The notes beneath the pieces were generated by a model, which saw nothing but the letters and a program-made list of their open reading frames with translations, was not told the origin of the DNA and searched no databases. A DNA stretch of 64,000 nt from Streptomyces sp. NBC_00464. Its GTDB lineage: Bacteria > Actinomycetota > Actinomycetes > Streptomycetales > Streptomycetaceae. Position 1 is the stretch's first letter, and the number at the start of each line of letters is the position of its first letter. The stretch spans positions 8,336,001-8,400,000 of the forward strand of contig NZ_CP107899.1 in the NCBI RefSeq assembly GCF_036013915.1. Direction: 5' to 3'. Below, piece by piece: positions 18,187 to 30,180 of the stretch. The position numbers and the translations under genes are program-made.

Positions 18187-18465
18187 TCAGTCCTCGGAGT
18201 CCGTGCTGCTTCGTCCGGCATCGCGGCGGAAGTCGGGCATGCCGAGGTGAACGGTGGAGGGCTGTCCTGCACGGTCGCGCATGGCCTCCAGCTTCTGCGC
18301 GGCGGCGGCCTTGGTGGTCTCGATGGCGGCGACCTCGCCGAGCCAGCCCTGTTCCTTGGCCTCCTGGAGGCGGTCGATGAGATTGGCGTGGATCTGCTCG
18401 AGGCGAGGCATCTGGGCCGGGTCCACGAGAAGTTGCTTCTGGCTCAAGTACAGGACCTTGGATGC
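18187..18465 (-). pseudogene. Integrase/recombinase C-terminal remnant (copy 2)
   Basis: The minus strand reads VLYLSQKQLLVDPAQMPRLE, QIHANLIDRLQEAKEQGWLG and then a Lys/Ala-rich coil, ending STVHLGMPDFRRD shortly before the stop at 18187. It aligns by eye with the remnant at 15831-16098 but is clearly diverged, so it is not a recent duplication. It is joined at about 18465 to an unrelated plus-strand fragment. The long open frame that continues to 19164 is a chimera of three fragments, not one gene. Confidence 0.6.
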
Positions 18466-18828
18466 CGCAGCGACGGAGCTGCTGGTGGCTTCGCCGCAGA
18501 TCCAGCACCGGCTGGACGTGACGGAGAACGCGACGGCGGACGTCGACGTGCTGGCCCGGCTCGCGCGGGATCCGGAACCACGGGTCCGGTTCGTGTACGC
18601 GGTGATGCTCTTCGAGTACAAGCGCCGTATCCCTGCCGGGGTGCTGGAGATCCTGGCGCAGGACCTGGAACCGAAGATCCGGCGGATCGTCGGCGAGAGT
18701 GAGAAACCGCCCGTCGCGGTGCAGGAGCCACCGCCCGTGCTGATGGCGGAGCAGCGGGTGACGCACCCGGATCCGGCGGTGCGGATGAAGGCCGCTGCTG
18801 ATCCCGAGGTACCGACCGTCCTGGCCCC
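18466..18828 (+). pseudogene. Fragment of a leucine-rich-variant/HEAT-like repeat protein
   Basis: The plus strand codes for ELLVASPQIQHRLDVTEN, then DVLARLARDPEPRVRFVYAV and THPDPAVRMKAAADPEVPTV, the rhythm of variant leucine-rich (LRV) or HEAT repeats (DPxPxVRxxxA). No start or natural end is present: both sides are cut by integrase and IS30 fragments. It is an internal piece of a larger lost gene. Confidence 0.5.
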
Positions 18829-19218
18829 GGAAATCGTCCCCGGATCTCGCCCGACGTGCCGGGCGATTTCGCGTACGCCCTTTCCCTGGGCTTTCAGGAG
18901 GGCGATCTCCTCCCGCTCAGCGAACGACAGATATCTGCCCGAATGCGGCTTCGGATCGAATGGTCGCATGCCGCCACACTGTCGATACCAGCGGTTTGCC
19001 TCCGCCGGCGCCACGCCGATAGCCCCAGCCGCTTCCTCAGCGAGAAGACCATCGGCGATCGCGTCCCAGAACGCCGCCTCGATGTGACGCTGGTACTTCG
19101 GATGTCCCGGAGACCTCAACTTCGGGCGCACCGACCGATCGGCTGCCTGCTGACGACGAACCATCCCACACCTCGCTGGTCACGAGGTGTTGCGACGACC
19201 GCTTGAATCCGCCTTGGG
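18829..19218 (-). mobile_element. Left part of an IS30-family element (transposase truncated)
   Basis: The minus strand from the ATG at 19164 codes for RPKLRSPGHPKYQRHIEAAF followed by the IS30 helix-turn-helix FAEREEIALLKAQGKGVREI and ARHVGRDPGTIS, where similarity stops at 18829; normally a REL motif and the DDE domain follow. About 54 nt of upstream IS sequence (to about 19218) abut the interrupted IS3 orfB, so the IS30 element seems to have inserted into the IS3 element and later lost its 3' two-thirds. Confidence 0.7.
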
Positions 19219-19803
19219 ATCCGCGGTCGCTGTGCAGGATGCAGCCGTCGACCGGGCCGCGCCGGGCCACGGCGTTGTTCAGAGCGGTCACGGCCAGGCG
19301 GGACTTCATTCTTGCGTCGATGGAGTAGCCCACGATCCTGTTGCTGAAGACGTCCTTGATCGCGCAGAGGTACAACTTCCCCTCTCCGGTGGCGTGTTCG
19401 GTGATGTCGGTGAGCCACAGCCGGTTCGGGCCGTCCGCGCTGAAGGTGCGGTTCACGAGGTCGTCGTGGACCGGCGGGCCGGCCTTCTTGCCCCGGCCGC
19501 GCTTCTTGCCGAACACGCTCCACCAGCGGTTGTCCCGGCAGATCCGCCACGCGGTCCGGTCGGCCATACCGGCACCCATGCCTCGGGCCTCGTCGGCCAG
19601 GAAGCGGTAGCCGAATTCCGGATCGTCCCGGTGGGCGTCGAACAACGCGTTCGCGCGATACGCCTCCTCGAGCACGGCGTCACCCACCGGCTTGTCGAGC
19701 CAGCGGTAGTAGGGCTGTCTGGCGAGCTTGAGCACCCGGCACGTCAACGTGACGGGCACCCCGTCCACGGCCAGCTCCTTCACGAGCGGGTAGATCCTTT
19801 TCC
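19219..19803 (-). pseudogene. IS3-family transposase OrfB, truncated DDE domain
   Basis: Entered by -1 frameshift from orfA. The frame reads RIYPLVKELAVDGVPVTLTC, the HTH_21 segment YRANALFDAHRDDPEFGYRF and the rve domain NRLWLTDITEHATGEGKLYL with the first catalytic Asp. The second Asp is in ILHSDRGSQ. Similarity ends directly after this point at about 19219, so the catalytic Glu and the C-terminus are lost; the remaining open frame is IS30 sequence read out of frame. Confidence 0.8.
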
Positions 19804-20088
19804 CGGCAGATTCGCCTGCGACAGATAGGCCGCGGCCCGGCGCAGCACCTCGTTCTCCTGTTCCAGCAACTTGATCCGCCGACGCGCTTCCCGCAGTTCC
19901 GCACTCTCGGAACTGCTCACCCCGGGCTTGGCGCCCTTGTCGATATCCGCGCGACGCATCCATTTCCACAGCGTCATCGGGTGGACCCCGAAATCGGAGC
20001 CCACCTGCTCGATGGTCACGCCGGAGTCGCGGTTCCTCGCGACCCGCACGACGTCCTGACGGAACTCCTCCGGATAAGGCTTGGGCAC
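19780..20088 (-). CDS. IS3-family transposase OrfA
   Basis: A 102-aa helix-turn-helix protein from the GTG at 20088 (GAAGGA upstream); a 20121 start is possible. It shows PKPYPEEFRQDVVRVARNRD, GVTIEQVGSDFGVHPMTLWK and the leucine-zipper segment ARRRIKLLEQENEVLRRAAA. Near its end the minus strand reads GGGAAAAGG (complement of 19796-19804), a classic -1 slippage site. There ribosomes would shift into orfB to make the OrfAB transposase. The orf itself is intact, but the partner is truncated. Confidence 0.85.
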   Translation of the reverse strand: MPKPYPEEFRQDVVRVARNRDSGVTIEQVGSDFGVHPMTLWKWMRRADIDKGAKPGVSSSESAELREARRRIKLLEQENEVLRRAAAYLSQANLPGKGSTRS

Positions 20089-23994: not shown

Positions 23995-24888
23995 TCAGAT
24001 GCCGAGGTAGGGGGCGATGGTGGCTGCGGTGGTCGCGCACCGCAGGTAATTCTCGGCGTGATGGAAACGGAAGAGAGCACTGACGGCGGTGGTGTGGTCC
24101 AGGGCGATCCCGTCGAAGAACCTGCTTATCTGGGGCGGGACGGCGACGGGGTCACCGGGGTCGGCGATGTTCACCCAGCGCGTCCTCCCGGGCAGGCCCG
24201 CACCCCGCAGCTGCGGGCCGTCGGCGGGCCGGGGTGCGGGGATGAGGCGCTCGAAGACCACGCGGGGCAGCGCCAGCGGCGAGCCCAGCGTGAGGAACAG
24301 CTCAGGCTGCAGCTCCGGGTGCGCGTGTAGGGCCTCGTAGGCGACGACCGAGCCCAGCGAGTGTGCGACGACGACGCGCGGCCGGTACTGGGCGATTCGC
24401 GCGGCAACTTCCTCGCGCGCCGCTATGCGTTCCGGGGCGTCCGCAGAGCGCAGGTACGCGGTAACCTCACTGCACAGCAGCCGGATGAAGACCCCCAGCG
24501 GCCCCTCGGCCAGGTTGAACCTGCGCGCCATCCACGACGTCAGAGCGCGCAGCGGCACCGCGGCGTGCCCCTGCGCCACCTCGTCCGGCAGCCCCAGCTC
24601 TCGCGCCCACGCATCAAGCATCTCCTGCGCCAGCGGGTCGTTGAGGAAGTCGCTCTCCTGCTCCCCCTGGGCTGCCGGCCCGGGGCGGAGCCTGTCCGCG
24701 TAGTAGGCGAAGTCGACGTCGAGCCGGTCCGGGGAGATACCGAGGCCGCTTTGCAGGTCCCGTGCCCAGGCGGCGGCTTTGAGGGCGCGAAGTTCCTCCT
24801 TGCGTGCGTCGGAGATTCCGGTGCCGAAGCTGTTGTAGATGCCGTGTACGGCGACGACTCGAAGCCGCGGAGTCGCGATACTGCTCAA
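23995..24888 (-). CDS. Alpha/beta hydrolase coupled to the caspase-NACHT-WD40 gene
   Basis: A 297-aa serine hydrolase. A TTG start at 24888 lies 5 nt after a perfect AGGAGG and overlaps the stop of the WD40 gene (TTGA), so it is translationally coupled. It starts LRVVAVHGIYNSFGTG (oxyanion strand with HG). The nucleophile elbow is VVVAHSLGSVVAYEAL, with Ser in A-H-S-L-G. Candidate acid and base lie in NIADPGDPVAVPP and the late DHTTAVSALFRFHHAENYL. There is no signal peptide. Lipase/PGAP1-like folds of this sort are used as effectors or accessories in bacterial conflict systems. Here the operon link suggests a joint role with the sensor-protease; the substrate (lipid or protein) is unknown. 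Confidence 0.85.
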   Translation of the reverse strand: MSSIATPRLRVVAVHGIYNSFGTGISDARKEELRALKAAAWARDLQSGLGISPDRLDVDFAYYADRLRPGPAAQGEQESDFLNDPLAQEMLDAWARELGLPDEVAQGHAAVPLRALTSWMARRFNLAEGPLGVFIRLLCSEVTAYLRSADAPERIAAREEVAARIAQYRPRVVVAHSLGSVVAYEALHAHPELQPELFLTLGSPLALPRVVFERLIPAPRPADGPQLRGAGLPGRTRWVNIADPGDPVAVPPQISRFFDGIALDHTTAVSALFRFHHAENYLRCATTAATIAPYLGI

Positions 24889-27800
24889 CGGAGCCTCCTG
24901 ACGAGGGGTTCAAGGCTGAGGGCGGCCACTTCGTGGCCGAAGCCGGCCACAACGGTGCCGTCCGCGGTGAGGGTCACAGCTCTCACCGCATCCGGGAAGT
25001 GAAATGTGGTGAGGCAGGTGCCGGTGGTCAGGTCCCACACCCGCACCGCCCCATCGCGGTCACCGGTGACGGCGTGCGGGCGATCCTCCAGCAGCGCCAC
25101 CGCCACCGCCCTCACCGCGCCGGTGTGGCCGGTCAGTTCACGGACCGGGGTGCCGGTGGTCAGGTCCCACACCCGCACCGACCCCTCGTAGCCGCCGGTG
25201 ACGGCGTGCGGGCGATCCTCCAGCAGCGCCACCGCCACCGCCCTCACCGCGCCGGTGTGGCCGGTCAGGTCGCGGACCGGGGTGCCGGTGGTCAGGTCCC
25301 ACACCCGCACCGACCCGTCGCCGCCGCCGGTGACGGCGTGCGGGCGATCCTCCAGCAGCGCCACCGCCACCGCCGTCACCCCGCCGCCGGCCAGCTCGCG
25401 GACCAGGGTGCCGGTGGTCAGGTCCCACACCCGCACCGACCCCTCGTAGCCGCCGGTGACGGCGTGCGGGCGGTCCCCCAGCAGCGCCACCGCCACCGCC
25501 GTCACCTCGTCGGCGTGGCCGGTCAGGTCGCGGACCGGGGTGCCGGTGGTCAGGTCCCACACCCGCACCGACCCGTCGCCGCCGCCGGTGACGGCGTGCG
25601 GGCGATCCTCCAGCAGCGCCACCGCCACCGCCGTCACCCCGCCGCCGGCCAGCTCGCGGACCAGGGTGCCGGTGGTCAGGTCCCACACCCGCACCGACCC
25701 CTCGTAGCCGCCGGTGACGGCGTGCGGGCGGTCCCCCAGCAGCGCCACCGCCACCGCCCTCACCTCGTCGGCGTGGCCGGTCAGGTCGTGGACTGGGGTG
25801 CCGGTGGTCAGGTCCCACACCCGCACCGACCCCTCGTAGCCGCCGGTGACGGCGTGCGGGCGGTCCCCCAGCAGCGCCACCGCCACCGCCCTCACCCCGT
25901 AGGTGTGGCCGGTCAGTTCACGGACCGGGGTGCCGGTGGTCAGGTCCCACACCCGCACCGACCCGTCGCGGTCGCCGGTGACGGCGTGCGGGCGGCCGTC
26001 CAGCAGCGCCACCTCCACCGCCCTCACCCCGTAGGTGTGGCCGGTCAGTTCACGGACCGGGGTGCCGGTGGTCAGGTCCCACACCCGCACCGCCCCGTCG
26101 TAGCCGCCGGTGACGGCGTGCGGGCGGCCGTCCAGCAGCGTCACCTCCACCGCCGTCACCTCGCCGGTGTGGCCGGTCAGTTCACGGACCGGGGTGCCGG
26201 TGGTCAGGTCCCACACCCGCACTGACCGGTAGCTGCCAGTGACGGCGTGCGGGTGGCCCCCCAGCAGCGCCACCGCCACCGCCCTCACCTCGTCGGCGTG
26301 GCCGGTCAGGGTGCGGACCAGGGTGCCGGTGGTCAGGTCCCACACCCGCACCGACCCGTCGTAGCCGCCGGTGACGGCGTGCGGGCGGCCGTCCAGCAGC
26401 GTCACCTCCACCGCGCTCACTCCGCTGGTGTGGCCGGGGAGGGTGCGGACCGGGGTGCCGGTGGTCAGGTCCCACACCCGCACCGACCCCTCGTAGCCGC
26501 CGGTGACGGCGTGCGGGCGGCCGTCCAGCAGCGCCACCGCCACCGCCCTCACCCCGCCGGTGTGGCCGGTCAGGGTGCGGACCGGGGTGCCGGTGGTCAG
26601 GTCCCACACCCGCACCGACCCCTCGTAGCCGCCGGTGACGGCGTGCGGGCGGTCCCCCAGCAGCGCCACCGCCACCGCCCTCACCCCGTAGGTGTGGCCG
26701 GTGAGGGTGCGGACCAGGAATGGTGAGACCTGGCCGCCCGTTGCCCATCGCACAGTCCAGTCGGCGTCGCCGGGCAGCTCATCCTGGAGCGGCGTGTCGC
26801 GGAAGCGTGCGGCGTCCAGCGCGAGGAACTGGCGGCGTGCCGCAGGTGGCAGCGTGTGGTGGAGGCCCCAGGAGGCGCGGTAGACGGCGGCATTGAGCCT
26901 GGCCTGGTCGGAGCGGGCGTAAAACAGGGCGCCGGCGAGGGTGTGGGGGTCAGCGTGCTGGAGGTAGCCGGCGTCGTCGAGGAGTTCATCGATGCGCCCG
27001 GCATCGACCGCGTGCTGGGCGGTGTGCCGCAGTAGATAGCCGGCAGCGTGCTGCCACAGCATGCCGCCGGCCGCATCCCGGGGGACGCAGTCCAGGAGCC
27101 GCTCGAACAGGCGCTCTGCCTGACCTGGCAGGGGGTTCGCGGTCATCGGGGGGGCCTCGGCGGACGGCGAGCTGGTGGGCCGGCGGAGCCAGTCGGCGAG
27201 GCCTTCGTGGAAGAGCCGGTACAGGGTGGTGCCGTCTGTGTCGATGTCGCGGCGCAGATAGAAGCGTGCCTCCCCGTCCAGGAGGACGAACAGGTCCCGT
27301 AGGGACAGGGGAGGGTCGCCGTCGACGGTGAAGGCTGCGGCGGCGTGGACCAGGACACTTTCGGGCATGCCCCGGCCCTGGGCGAAGGCGAGGACCGTGA
27401 GCACCGGACGCAGGTGAATCCGGTCGGCGTGGCGCTGCAGGTCGAGTTCGAGGAGATCGGGCAGGCGGCGGGGCACGGCCCGGCCCAGCCGTACGGCCTC
27501 CTCGGGCGTGTCGGCGGGCAGGCTGGCCAGAAGATGGTGGATGTAGAGTCCCGCGGTGAGGAACTCGCCCCACTCAAGGGATTCGGCGTCGTGGCCCTCG
27601 CGGCCGGTCGGGGCGTCGGTGGTGAGGGTTTCGGCGATCGTTTCTGCCAGGGTGTCCCGCATACTCCGCAGGCCACCGCGGGTGTAGGGGCCGTCGGCGG
27701 TCAGGAGTCGTTTGGCATAGACGGCCACATCCCGGCGGACCTCGTGCGGTGCAATGGTGCTCAGGTCCGTGCACGCTCCGGCGTCCCGCGCCAGGCCGAG

Positions 27801-29261
27801 GAGTTGGTCGAACCGGCTGTCCTCGCGGGTGGCGACCAGCAGCCGCAGCCGGCCGGCCGCCGTCTGCGCGTGTCGGGCGAGGGGGAGCAGCAGGGCAGTG
27901 GTGATGTCCTGGGGTTTCAGGGCTTCATCGAGGGCGTCGATGACGATGGTGACCGGGGGACTGCCGGGGGGCAGCAGGTTCAGCAGGTGCTGTGCCGGGT
28001 TTCCGGCCGTGTCCTGGGTTTCCTCGTCCGATGGCATTGGGCTGTCGGGGGTGGTGATGTGGCGTAGTTGGCGGGTCAGGGAGGCGGTGATGTCGTCGAG
28101 GCCGAGGCGTCGTGCGTGGACGGCCGCGATCCGGTTGTTCTCGCCCGGTACGTGGTCGTCGAGTCCGGACCACAGGGGGCGAGTGTGGCGGCGCAGTGCC
28201 GGATGGGCGGCGCACAGGAGAATGCCCAGGAGCGCGGACTTGCCGGCGCCTGCTTTGCCGGTGACCACGCGCAGCCCTGGGGCGGCCGTGTCGTCGTCGA
28301 GCCACGCGGTGAGGGTGTCGAGCTGTGCGGTGCGGCCGCTGAAGTAGCCCTCGTCCCAGTCGCGGTCCACCGGTTCGCCGCCCCCGGCGCGGCGCATGAA
28401 GTGCTGGGGGTCCGCGGCCCAGTCGGCCAGGCGGGCGATTTCCGGGGGCAGTCCCGGTGCCGGTGTGGTGCTTTGGGGGGTGTAGGAGGGGTTGGGGAAG
28501 AATGGTAGATGGGACAGGTCGGCGTGGCCGGGAACGAGACTGGTCAGGATCGTCTGCGGCAGCCCGTCGGCCCGATCGGCCAGTTCGCTGACGGTGCTGT
28601 CGATGTCCCGCCAGACCGTGCCGGGCGGGATGTACCGCAAGGAGGGATCGAAGCGGACCTCCAGGTCGCGGTACCTCGCCAGCACCCGTACCAGGGCCTG
28701 GCTCAGGCGGTAGCCGAACGCCTGCTTGTCCGGTCCGGTCGCGGCCAGCACCCAGGCCCGGCGCTTGTCCACGTCCATCCGCGAGTGCCAGGCGGTCACT
28801 GCGGCCTGCCCGGCGTAGCAGACGTCCAGGACGAACAGTGTCATCGGTCGATGCCGCCGGGGGTGGTCTTCGATCAGGTCGATCCACCCGCCCACCGGCC
28901 TGCCCAGGCGATCCCCGTCGCTGCCCAGGATGTACAGCTTCTCGCTGCTGCCGTCGGCCAGCTCACCGTGCCCGACGATGTGCACGATCAGCACGTCGGC
29001 GTCCTCGGCCTCGACCGCAGCCTCGACCAGCTTCCCGTGGTCGGCCTGTCCCTCCGGCGCTGCGGTCGGGCGCTGCGTGTACCGGAACTCCTCCAGGATC
29101 TTTGCGACCCTGGCAGCATGAACGGGGGCGTCCTCCAGGACGTCCAGACCGAACCGCGGCGAGTCACCTTCCTCAGTACGCGTCAACGCGATCCCCAGCG
29201 ACAGCACCACGTGCCGCGGTTCGCTCACGCCCCCCGCTTGCTCCACGCCCGACGCCACCAC
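24885..29261 (-). CDS. Caspase-like protease - NACHT/STAND NTPase - WD40 repeat protein
   Basis: About 1458 aa from the GTG at 29261 (GGAGG upstream, 6 nt spacing); GTG at 29228 is an alternative. Residues 15-250 are a caspase/C14 domain: catalytic His98 in HIVGHGE and Cys148 in LFVLDVCYAGQ. A NACHT/STAND NTPase follows: Walker A GKAGAGKS (about 335-342), Walker B VTIVIDALDEAL (about 437-448), then a helical winged-helix/arm region to about 840. From about 848 come 13 near-identical WD40 repeats and one degenerate blade (two 7-blade propellers). STAND proteins sense a ligand through the repeats, oligomerise on NTP and activate the fused effector; cleavage of target proteins, perhaps leading to cell death during phage attack, is inferred. 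The downstream hydrolase is coupled. Confidence 0.92.
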   Translation of the reverse strand: MVASGVEQAGGVSEPRHVVLSLGIALTRTEEGDSPRFGLDVLEDAPVHAARVAKILEEFRYTQRPTAAPEGQADHGKLVEAAVEAEDADVLIVHIVGHGELADGSSEKLYILGSDGDRLGRPVGGWIDLIEDHPRRHRPMTLFVLDVCYAGQAAVTAWHSRMDVDKRRAWVLAATGPDKQAFGYRLSQALVRVLARYRDLEVRFDPSLRYIPPGTVWRDIDSTVSELADRADGLPQTILTSLVPGHADLSHLPFFPNPSYTPQSTTPAPGLPPEIARLADWAADPQHFMRRAGGGEPVDRDWDEGYFSGRTAQLDTLTAWLDDDTAAPGLRVVTGKAGAGKSALLGILLCAAHPALRRHTRPLWSGLDDHVPGENNRIAAVHARRLGLDDITASLTRQLRHITTPDSPMPSDEETQDTAGNPAQHLLNLLPPGSPPVTIVIDALDEALKPQDITTALLLPLARHAQTAAGRLRLLVATREDSRFDQLLGLARDAGACTDLSTIAPHEVRRDVAVYAKRLLTADGPYTRGGLRSMRDTLAETIAETLTTDAPTGREGHDAESLEWGEFLTAGLYIHHLLASLPADTPEEAVRLGRAVPRRLPDLLELDLQRHADRIHLRPVLTVLAFAQGRGMPESVLVHAAAAFTVDGDPPLSLRDLFVLLDGEARFYLRRDIDTDGTTLYRLFHEGLADWLRRPTSSPSAEAPPMTANPLPGQAERLFERLLDCVPRDAAGGMLWQHAAGYLLRHTAQHAVDAGRIDELLDDAGYLQHADPHTLAGALFYARSDQARLNAAVYRASWGLHHTLPPAARRQFLALDAARFRDTPLQDELPGDADWTVRWATGGQVSPFLVRTLTGHTYGVRAVAVALLGDRPHAVTGGYEGSVRVWDLTTGTPVRTLTGHTGGVRAVAVALLDGRPHAVTGGYEGSVRVWDLTTGTPVRTLPGHTSGVSAVEVTLLDGRPHAVTGGYDGSVRVWDLTTGTLVRTLTGHADEVRAVAVALLGGHPHAVTGSYRSVRVWDLTTGTPVRELTGHTGEVTAVEVTLLDGRPHAVTGGYDGAVRVWDLTTGTPVRELTGHTYGVRAVEVALLDGRPHAVTGDRDGSVRVWDLTTGTPVRELTGHTYGVRAVAVALLGDRPHAVTGGYEGSVRVWDLTTGTPVHDLTGHADEVRAVAVALLGDRPHAVTGGYEGSVRVWDLTTGTLVRELAGGGVTAVAVALLEDRPHAVTGGGDGSVRVWDLTTGTPVRDLTGHADEVTAVAVALLGDRPHAVTGGYEGSVRVWDLTTGTLVRELAGGGVTAVAVALLEDRPHAVTGGGDGSVRVWDLTTGTPVRDLTGHTGAVRAVAVALLEDRPHAVTGGYEGSVRVWDLTTGTPVRELTGHTGAVRAVAVALLEDRPHAVTGDRDGAVRVWDLTTGTCLTTFHFPDAVRAVTLTADGTVVAGFGHEVAALSLEPLVRRLR
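25010..26720 (-). repeat. Tandem array of ~13 WD40-coding repeats (about 129-132 bp each)
   Basis: Thirteen successive units encode RPHAVTGGYEGSVRVWDLTT-type blades with nearly identical DNA. Differences concentrate at a few positions, such as the residues after GH (TYG, TGG, ADE, TGA), the GYE/GDR/GGG triplet and the end of the blade. Two units (at about 25380 and 25640) lack three residues and are identical to each other, pointing to recent copying of a two-blade block. Confidence 0.95.
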
Positions 29262-29459
29262 CCTCCGCCTCCGGCCCTTTGGCACCTCGATCAGCAACGC
29301 GGTTCGACGATAGATACTCGATACCTCCGTGATGGCCAGATCACCGAGATCGGGAAGCGACTGTTCTCCTGGAGGACGACTCGGGAGGGCGCCGGCACCG
29401 GGCTCTTTCAGTACACCGGCCGAAGGACTTCCTGAGGTGGGGTCAGGGGGCGAGGGGCC

Positions 29460-29660
29460 TTGACCCGCGTCCTCCTGCTGGACGGCGAACTCGCGGCTGC
29501 CGAACCCAAGAAACTCCGCTACCGGCTCTTGCACGTCGCCGCCCGGATCACCCGGGGCGGCCGCCGCCTCCACCTGCGCATATCAGCGACTTTGCCCTGA
29601 CGACATGAGCTCGCGGCCGCATTCCGCCGCCTGGCCGCACTGCCTCGCCCCGCCAGCTGA
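29460..29660 (+). pseudogene. IS1380-family transposase, C-terminal remnant
   Basis: The plus strand reads VLLLDGELAAAEPKKLRYRL, LHVAARITRGGRRLHLRISA, then an in-frame TGA where the family has Trp, and continues RHELAAAFRRLAALPRPAS to a stop at 29660. This is the C-terminal end of IS1380 transposases. CTGAAAAGCCGAGG near 29783 may be the IS end. It lies directly upstream of the caspase-NACHT gene and marks a former insertion. Confidence 0.7.
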
Positions 29661-29850
29661 CTCGTCGTCCCCGCCCACCTCGACTCAAGGACCTTGGAGA
29701 ACCCGACCCCGCGTCGGGCCCTCCCCATGCCCCCGGCCGACGCGGCCTCAAACAACCTTGCACAGCCGACCAGCAGCACCAACTGAAAAGCCGAGGTTAG
29801 GCTCCGACGGCGGCTGCTGATCTGAACAGAAGGACTTGACAGGGAAGTGC

Positions 29851-29949
29851 GCTGAGAACTGGATCTCCGAACACCCCACCGAGGCCCGCCTCGGCAGGTT
29901 CGCCTCCGACGTCCAGCCCAAACGCCGGCGCGACGACAACCACGCCTGA
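29851..29949 (+). pseudogene. C-terminal fragment of an unidentified gene
   Basis: Thirty-two codons, AENWISEHPTEARLGRFASD followed by VQPKRRRDDNHA and a TGA at 29947, have good coding character but no start. They lie 22 bp upstream of the next gene, which has its own TGGAGG site, so this looks like the tail of the preceding operon gene, cut off by the IS1380 insertion. The parent protein is not recognised. Confidence 0.45.
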
Positions 29950-29971
29950 GCTCCTCCACCTGGAGGCCCCC

Positions 29972-30180
29972 GTGAACAGCACCCCTCCGCACGACGTCGA
30001 ACACACCCTCGCCTACCCCGAGCCGCCCGCCTCCCCGCTCTGGCACCGCAGGGTCCGAAGCCCCGGCCACTCACCCCGGAGCAACAGCGTCGCAACTGCG
30101 AGCTTCTGCTCCGCGCGCAGCACACCTCCCGACCCCGCTCCCCGCGCACCACCAAGACCCGGGCGGAGGCCCGCTCATGA
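29972..30180 (+). pseudogene. Small plasmid/ICE-type gene with a one-base frameshift
   Basis: The GTG at 29972 follows TGGAGG. The frame starts VNSTPPHDVEHTLAYPEPPA and reaches SPLWHRR, where coding sense moves to another frame at CAGGGTCCG (about 30050): GPKPRPLTPEQQRRNCELLL to a TGA at 30178. Adding one G to the GGG run restores a single 70-aa frame. The stop overlaps the ATG of the next gene. Function unknown. Confidence 0.6.

Follow-up and report, generated by a model that had tools for sequence, protein, structure and literature searches.

In the 64,000 nucleotides of Streptomyces sp. NBC_00464 analysed here (the window), a gene joining a caspase-like protease, a STAND NTPase and WD40 repeats overlaps the gene of a serine alpha/beta-hydrolase, and the pairing of the caspase-STAND gene with the hydrolase is real, being kept across actinobacterial genomes through repeated changes of gene order. 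Judged from sequence, the partner gene tracks the type of protease more than the STAND chassis that carries it, because most caspase loci listed have the hydrolase or an LCAT-type gene while the trypsin loci examined have neither. The recurring actinobacterial pairs suggest a caspase-controlled lipase that serves in defence or regulated cell death.

The locus and its two proteins

The features of the locus are collected in Table 1. The larger, or sensor, gene is contained in the open frame 24885..29573 (minus strand) and may start at GTG 29231, since that is where the earliest available start of a relative, L046, aligns; residue numbers below are counted from GTG 29261. The domain order caspase, NTPase, WD40 and the number of WD40 blades, about 14, agree with the initial annotation. 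The catalytic motifs that it named are also in place: GHG at residues 97-99 and DVCYAG at 146-151 supply the catalytic His-Cys dyad (H98, C148) of the caspase, which with its caspase fold belongs to the caspase/metacaspase superfamily (C14), and GKAGAGKS at 335-342 and VIDALDEA at 440-447 are the Walker A and Walker B motifs of the NTPase. Across 40 aligned relatives no substitution is seen at H98, D146, C148, G338, G340, K341, D442, D445 or E446. The earlier label STAND/NACHT holds as regards STAND and the Walker motifs but not as regards the Pfam NACHT model (PF05729), which scores 12.1 bits against a cut-off of 26.7; AAA_16, nSTAND1 and NPHP3_N each score above their own cut-offs, so STAND is the safer name.

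Table 1. Positions of the features in the window
Feature	Position	Strand	Details
Caspase-STAND-WD40 gene	24885..29261	minus	1458 codons from GTG 29261; alternative start GTG 29231
Caspase domain	28497..29231	minus	H98 codon 28968-28970; C148 codon 28818-28820
STAND NTPase core	27861..28343	minus	AAA_16 match, residues 307-467; Walker A and B intact
WD40 region	24888..26717	minus	13 VWDL blades and one degenerate last blade, about 14
TTGA overlap	24885..24888	minus	sensor-gene TGA stop and hydrolase TTG start
AGGAGG, Shine-Dalgarno-like	24894..24899	minus	5 nt upstream of hydrolase TTG
Serine alpha/beta-hydrolase gene	23995..24888	minus	297 aa; TTG start
Cap loop 1	24637..24693	minus	residues 66-84, Q74-G75; pLDDT of block 71-80, 62
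Cap loop 2	24550..24600	minus	residues 97-113, Q106-G107; pLDDT of block 101-110, 68
IS1380-type transposase 3' remnant	29466..29645	plus	other strand, just upstream of sensor gene

The WD40 blades of the window protein have a mean identity of 0.71 in fixed register. Concerted evolution of the blades was considered and dropped, since in the relatives L046, L047 and L048 identity within the protein (0.32, 0.46 and 0.27) is lower than identity to the window (0.39, 0.49 and 0.34). The sole PADLOC match, at 1.1e-22, is to a HEAT-ARM repeat model and lies in the WD40 part; PADLOC gave no match for the hydrolase.

The stop/start overlap and the Shine-Dalgarno sequence described initially are both present, with the hydrolase TTG lying within the TTGA. 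The encoded enzyme has the nucleophile elbow, Asp, His and oxyanion HG of a lipase-type alpha/beta-hydrolase. S177 (codon 24358-24360), D246, H276 and H15-G16 are invariant in 124 hydrolases of four classes and D243 is found in 123 of them; each of the four classes, a caspase-less clade among them, thereby retains its catalytic residues. The predicted structure models as a lipase-type fold (VIA-align), a likeness of fold only, and the hydrolase profile had no match among PDB sequences at E 0.1. No single-frame fusion of hydrolase and caspase occurs among the scanned hydrolase loci.

The insertion-sequence remnant said to adjoin the pair is likewise confirmed, matching PF13701 positions 375-434 (E 2.3e-8) with one internal stop. 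No RNA families reached gathering scores at 18-36 kb. A second contig, C2 (245,315 bases), also codes for the pair, with the hydrolase, caspase and STAND parts, which were the parts compared, 100% identical to those of the window.

Linkage and distribution of the pair

The forward scan of named genomes used 26 hydrolase queries. The best 80 of 475 confirmed loci, together with 37 hydrolase-holding loci from searches of the genus and its relatives, gave 117 loci that were scanned with our own profiles; leaving out three duplicates (114) and then three partnerless rows shorter than 200 aa left 111 rows for a quick hydrolase tree. Within this set (best 80 of 475, plus 37), 38 of the 111 rows are partnerless and form one clade (SH-aLRT 100), all from Streptosporangiaceae, the 16 members compared sharing a chromosomal neighbourhood, and the five rows adjacent to VMAP genes form a separate clade (support 100). 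Among the other 68 rows of the same best 80 of 475 plus 37, a caspase, STAND or WD40 piece lies within 5 kb in 64 and caspase and STAND both do so in 60; the four without a partner by that count are L053, L057, L065 and L145, and L057 adjoins a piece with two weak WD40 matches at a contig end.

The genes are closely joined. The 80 loci in which hydrolase and partner share a strand contain 86 junctions, of which 65 are four-base NTGA stop/start overlaps; five VMAP loci and the second copy of the pair, on C2, are included. In six loci (L060, L061, L064, L106, L111 and L147) the hydrolase gene is flanked by the caspase-STAND gene and by a WD40 gene distinct from it, and overlaps both. Mirror-tree comparison of distances in the 77 loci with all three parts, a set from which L180, four irregular loci, duplicate entries and rows below the length limits were removed, gives 0.876 for hydrolase and caspase, with a permutation maximum of 0.134, and 0.880 for hydrolase and STAND. 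Gene order in these loci is downstream in 42, upstream in 21, on the opposite strand in 8 and between in 6, and the midpoint-rooted FastTree hydrolase tree requires at least 13 changes of gene order with linkage kept. The conserved pairing across actinomycete genomes that the initial annotation had looked for is borne out by the forward count, by the reverse count given below, by the junction overlaps, by the mirror-tree values and by the changes of gene order.

Paired loci are found in Streptomycetaceae, Pseudonocardiaceae, Micromonosporaceae, Thermomonosporaceae and Streptosporangiaceae. Distribution within the genus is patchy, with 22 of 295 genomes at E 1e-30; at 1e-12 the profile is matched in 122 of 295 genus genomes, VMAP-type relatives included.

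Partner gene, protease type and known systems

The reverse search covered 295 genomes of the genus with a 40-row caspase-STAND profile and with hydrolase and LCAT profiles, and counted a partner within 8 kb; the caspase-STAND profile derives from paired loci, a bias towards paired matches at the top. Among the matches listed, 147 caspase-STAND places were entered, three second pieces of entered genes being omitted, together with 90 hydrolase and 81 LCAT rows, and the remaining listed hydrolase and LCAT rows, compared by eye, are either on a different contig from every entered place or over 30 kb away. A copy counts twice where it is present on two contigs or at each end of the chromosome (G000, G115). 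Nineteen listed places whose match starts late were set apart, 16 starting in the NTPase part and three near the caspase end (G276, G062 and G114). The LCAT and trypsin groups emerged from this search without being put in.

Within 8 kb of the 128 listed caspase-STAND matches there is a hydrolase in 74, an LCAT-type gene in 42, both in none and neither in 12, so that a caspase with a neighbouring alpha/beta-hydrolase, as in VMAP systems, is found in the window and in 116 of these 128. As to the 12 listed places with neither, the hydrolase of G287 is on another contig end and L180 and L225 adjoin a divergent relative of the hydrolase; the 9 that remain among those listed include L173, with a nucleoside-phosphorylase-like domain before its caspase, and G179:C1, G163 and G146, which were counted from the search only.

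The 19 late-starting listed places divide into 8 with LCAT, the three near the caspase end among them, and 11 with neither partner. Ten of these 11 were scanned, and among the matches listed nine have Trypsin_2 and one Trypsin (2.4e-4); a small neighbour is common to seven of the 11 places listed and is Trypco1 in all five scanned. The examined trypsin versions of the chassis have no lipase within 8 kb. For the listed matches, Fisher's test gives 2.7e-11 for 119/128 vs 0/11 and 2.2e-10 for 116/128 vs 0/11, values that are nominal because the rows are related. A strict rule of protease and partner is counted against by four of the eight examined LCAT-linked STAND genes, which show no caspase: among the late LCAT places listed, the caspase profile matches L217, L220 and L223, L218 has a weak Pfam caspase match (0.0073), and none is seen in L219, L221, L222 and L224.

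The accessible text of Kaur et al. (2020, PMC7159879) describes VMAP (MoxR-vWA) ternary systems in which a caspase has a neighbouring alpha/beta-hydrolase, and VMAP proteins in which trypsin goes with Trypco1/2 and caspase with alpha/beta-hydrolase. By its profile matches, the STAND-WD40 chassis repeats this pattern, trypsin with Trypco1 and caspase with alpha/beta-hydrolase. The likeness to VMAP as described there extends to the caspase with a separate hydrolase gene and to the trypsin versions with Trypco1 or 2; the window differs in carrying its caspase on a single STAND-WD40 protein, and other relatives use LCAT instead. Window-type and VMAP-associated hydrolases are homologous, and the weak hydrolase matches L077, L078, L079, L081 and L082 adjoin VMAP-profile matches, confirmed by PF19965 in L078 and L081. 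The window locus was rejected as a VMAP system, since no VMAP, vWA or MoxR was found in the two genes or in the ten neighbouring ORFs scanned.

The same accessible text describes EACC1-caspase two-gene systems, prevalent in actinobacteria, with variable C-termini that include STAND NTPases and repeats, so that the caspase is fused to C-terminal parts as in the window (PMC7159879). An EACC1-type caspase was rejected at 31.6 bits against a cut-off of 140 for NF047832, and the one upstream ORF scanned, 29522-30070, has no Pfam match; no EACC1-type match is seen in ten other neighbouring ORFs either, in a scan that took in part of the short ORFs. The three-part architecture of the window protein is shared by metacaspase-NACHT-WD40 proteins, which are widely distributed (Asplund-Samuelsson et al., 2012, PMC3501461); the accessible text of that work names no hydrolase partner for them and gives hydrolases as a common class in metacaspase operons. 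Canu caspase-nuclease and HamM/Avs1a trypsin-nuclease systems resemble the window in having protease and partner enzyme in neighbouring genes, the protease of the HamM/Avs1a trypsin cases being fused to a defence protein. The closest tested precedent for the proposed action comes from PMC12799240, whose accessible text describes HamM as a nuclease with two disordered loops, each cut by the partner protease at a conserved residue, and CanC as a nuclease that a caspase complex activates and that has two such predicted sites. A further likeness is a pair of low-confidence, putatively flexible loops that each carry a conserved residue, but the partner there is an MBL-fold nuclease, whereas that of the window is an alpha/beta-hydrolase whose cleavage we infer.

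A caspase-STAND-WD40 and hydrolase pair was not found in the accessible text of PMC7159879, PMC8195603, PMC3501461, PMC12799240, PMC5587647 and PMC9218822. Nor did the open-licence literature searched yield the STAND-WD40 form, an LCAT alternative, the loop motifs or, for this chassis, the contrast with trypsin. The architecture and the pairing principle are known separately, and their combination on one STAND-WD40 protein was not found in that literature. The initial annotation had spoken of a distinct protease and hydrolase variant, which stands for the STAND-WD40 form but not for the pairing of caspase and alpha/beta-hydrolase, known for VMAP since 2020 from the accessible text of PMC7159879.

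Cap loops and the proposed action of the pair

Loop classes were defined in this analysis on the 128 hydrolases with at least 235 aa. Class II (n=24) is the L069-L075 clade with L186-L202, the latter assigned by likeness rather than by tree; class I (n=57) is the remainder after removal of the caspase-less clade, the VMAP rows and four odd rows, and includes L057, L100 and L164, where no caspase is seen owing to contig ends. In class I, Q74 is found in 96% and G75 in 77% (otherwise mostly S, A or T) for loop 1, and Q106 in 86% and G107 in 93% for loop 2, and these positions stand among mostly less conserved loop residues. Both motifs, in relaxed form, are present in 55 of 57 class I rows, in all five VMAP-paired rows and in 3 of the 38 caspase-less rows, none of these 38 having the strict loop-2 QG. 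They occur in none of the 24 class II rows, drawn from caspase- or STAND-linked loci, many of which have other loop motifs (G-D/E-P, T/S-P); the class II caspases, in members of L069-L075, are distant, with 16-19% identity to the window. For class I and VMAP pairs Q-G is a candidate site of cutting or docking, and it is not universal, because caspase-paired class II also lacks it. Its loss in the caspase-less clade is a single evolutionary event, and the cleavage proposal is weakened because loss without a caspase is this one event only. The invariant D146, which we take to be reminiscent of metacaspases that cut after Arg or Lys, counts against Q-G cutting, because such enzymes would not predict it.

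In STAND proteins in general, propellers sense and the NTPase assembles. We consider it about evenly balanced whether the two genes are a conflict or regulated-death module in which the caspase licenses the co-translated lipase, probably by cutting its cap loops. The WD40 propellers would sense a trigger, the STAND NTPase would then assemble, and the N-terminal caspase, clustered beside the co-translated lipase, would be activated by proximity; it would license the hydrolase, most likely by cutting the two flexible loops at or near Q-G, and the opened lipase would degrade membrane lipids so that the cell is stopped or killed, possibly in defence against phage. The proposal is weakened because 12 of 128 listed caspase matches have neither type of hydrolase, because four of the eight LCAT-linked STAND genes examined lack a visible caspase, because class II and the one cyanobacterial cap read lack the Q-G motifs, and because the profile of the reverse search came from paired loci. 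Somewhat more tentative is the wider idea that caspase-activated lipases form a class of bacterial immune effectors: a caspase under STAND control would cut the two Q-G gating loops of a phospholipase-like proenzyme, in the manner of HamM and CanC, with the pair having moved as a unit between STAND-WD40 and VMAP chassis and LCAT substituting in other lineages. If true, bacterial caspases would be linked to membrane destruction without gasdermin, and the pair offers a concrete candidate that bears a lipase, is frequent in Streptomyces and its relatives, provides residues for mutation and has Q-G loops that make caspase cleavage of the hydrolase testable. That one chassis combines trypsin with Trypco1 and caspase with a lipase suggests a tie between the partner gene and the way in which the protease acts.

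A reading that fits the linkage data equally, and that we judge distinctly less probable while still taking it seriously, has caspase and hydrolase both deployed after STAND activation, the hydrolase being recruited or switched on by binding rather than by cleavage. The class II hydrolases keep their partner without Q-G loops, and two hydrolase families serve, so that a common cut site is not obvious; yet the lack of a lipase beside the examined trypsin versions makes the partner depend on the protease, and without a protease the Q-G motifs of class I are difficult to account for. It is unlikely that the hydrolase is instead a regulator, for instance one that removes a lipid anchor from the caspase-STAND protein or from a host target, as a deacylase or thioesterase would, or one that restrains the caspase as its antidote. 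The caspase-less clade retains an intact enzyme, and no fixed antidote order emerges from a separate count of 68 pairs, where the hydrolase gene lies upstream on the same strand in 37 pairs and downstream in 23, and occupies the opposite strand in 8.

A role in development or in mycelial self/non-self recognition rather than phage defence seems a shade less likely again. Related systems are tied to a multicellular habit in the accessible text of Kaur et al. (2020, PMC7159879), and the hydrolase is found in 0 of 50,697 phage records at E 1e-6, but the patchy distribution in the genus, the 17 of 72,556 plasmid records with the hydrolase in any context and the insertion-sequence remnant suggest a mobile accessory module. 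That the two genes are chance operon neighbours with no joint function is scarcely credible: the partner is missing in the 12 of 128 listed caspase matches and in one clade of 38 hydrolases, but linkage through at least 13 rearrangements, mirror-tree values of 0.88 and the dependence on the protease already contradict it. Outside the actinobacteria, a distant hydrolase whose cap lacks the Q-G motifs (one sequence, by eye) is encoded on a plasmid of the cyanobacterium Leptolyngbya, next to a caspase protein of 2216 aa that has no STAND match and with which it shares a 4-base overlap.

A second copy of the pair on C2

The source genome G000 encodes the caspase-STAND-WD40 and hydrolase pair twice, on its chromosome contig C1 and on a second contig, C2 (245,315 bases). 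Ungapped comparison of the right end of C1 with C2 gave mismatches at 1,236 of 19,001 and 45 of 9,315 positions, counts that we infer to be those expected from single-base shifts. To judge from the sequence, C2 and the chromosome end look like a single common arm, lying at an equal offset from the contig end, and C2 looks like a linear plasmid or a duplicated chromosome end carrying its own copy of the pair. Two overlapping ORFs within the window resemble a broken transposase, which we take to be of IS30 type.

Coordinates of the shared stretch and the transposase-like ORFs
Feature	Window	C2	Strand	Basis
Stretch matching between C1 right end and C2	14384-33384	121000-140000		ungapped comparison
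Two overlapping ORFs, HTH_38 and rve integrase core	18190-19969		-	domain matches

Other partners and proteases

Caspase-STAND genes are adjoined by LCAT-type hydrolases at loci L171, L172, L174-L179 and L181-L185, with PF02450 confirmed in all four scanned; these hydrolases are a second predicted lipase family, in a role equal to that of the pair's hydrolase. At L173, a nucleoside-phosphorylase-caspase-STAND protein has no lipase neighbour, and another effector may have replaced the lipase. The trypsin-STAND-WD40 genes at L207, L209 and L211-L215 all share a small neighbour, Trypco1 in 5/5 scanned, here outside the context of VMAP, the known ternary systems (Kaur 2020).

Hydrolase relatives without a caspase

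Hydrolase relatives without the caspase occur at L138 and 37 further loci, all in Streptosporangiaceae. Their catalytic residues are intact, the chromosomal neighbourhood is conserved across the 16 loci compared, and the hydrolase has possibly been domesticated.
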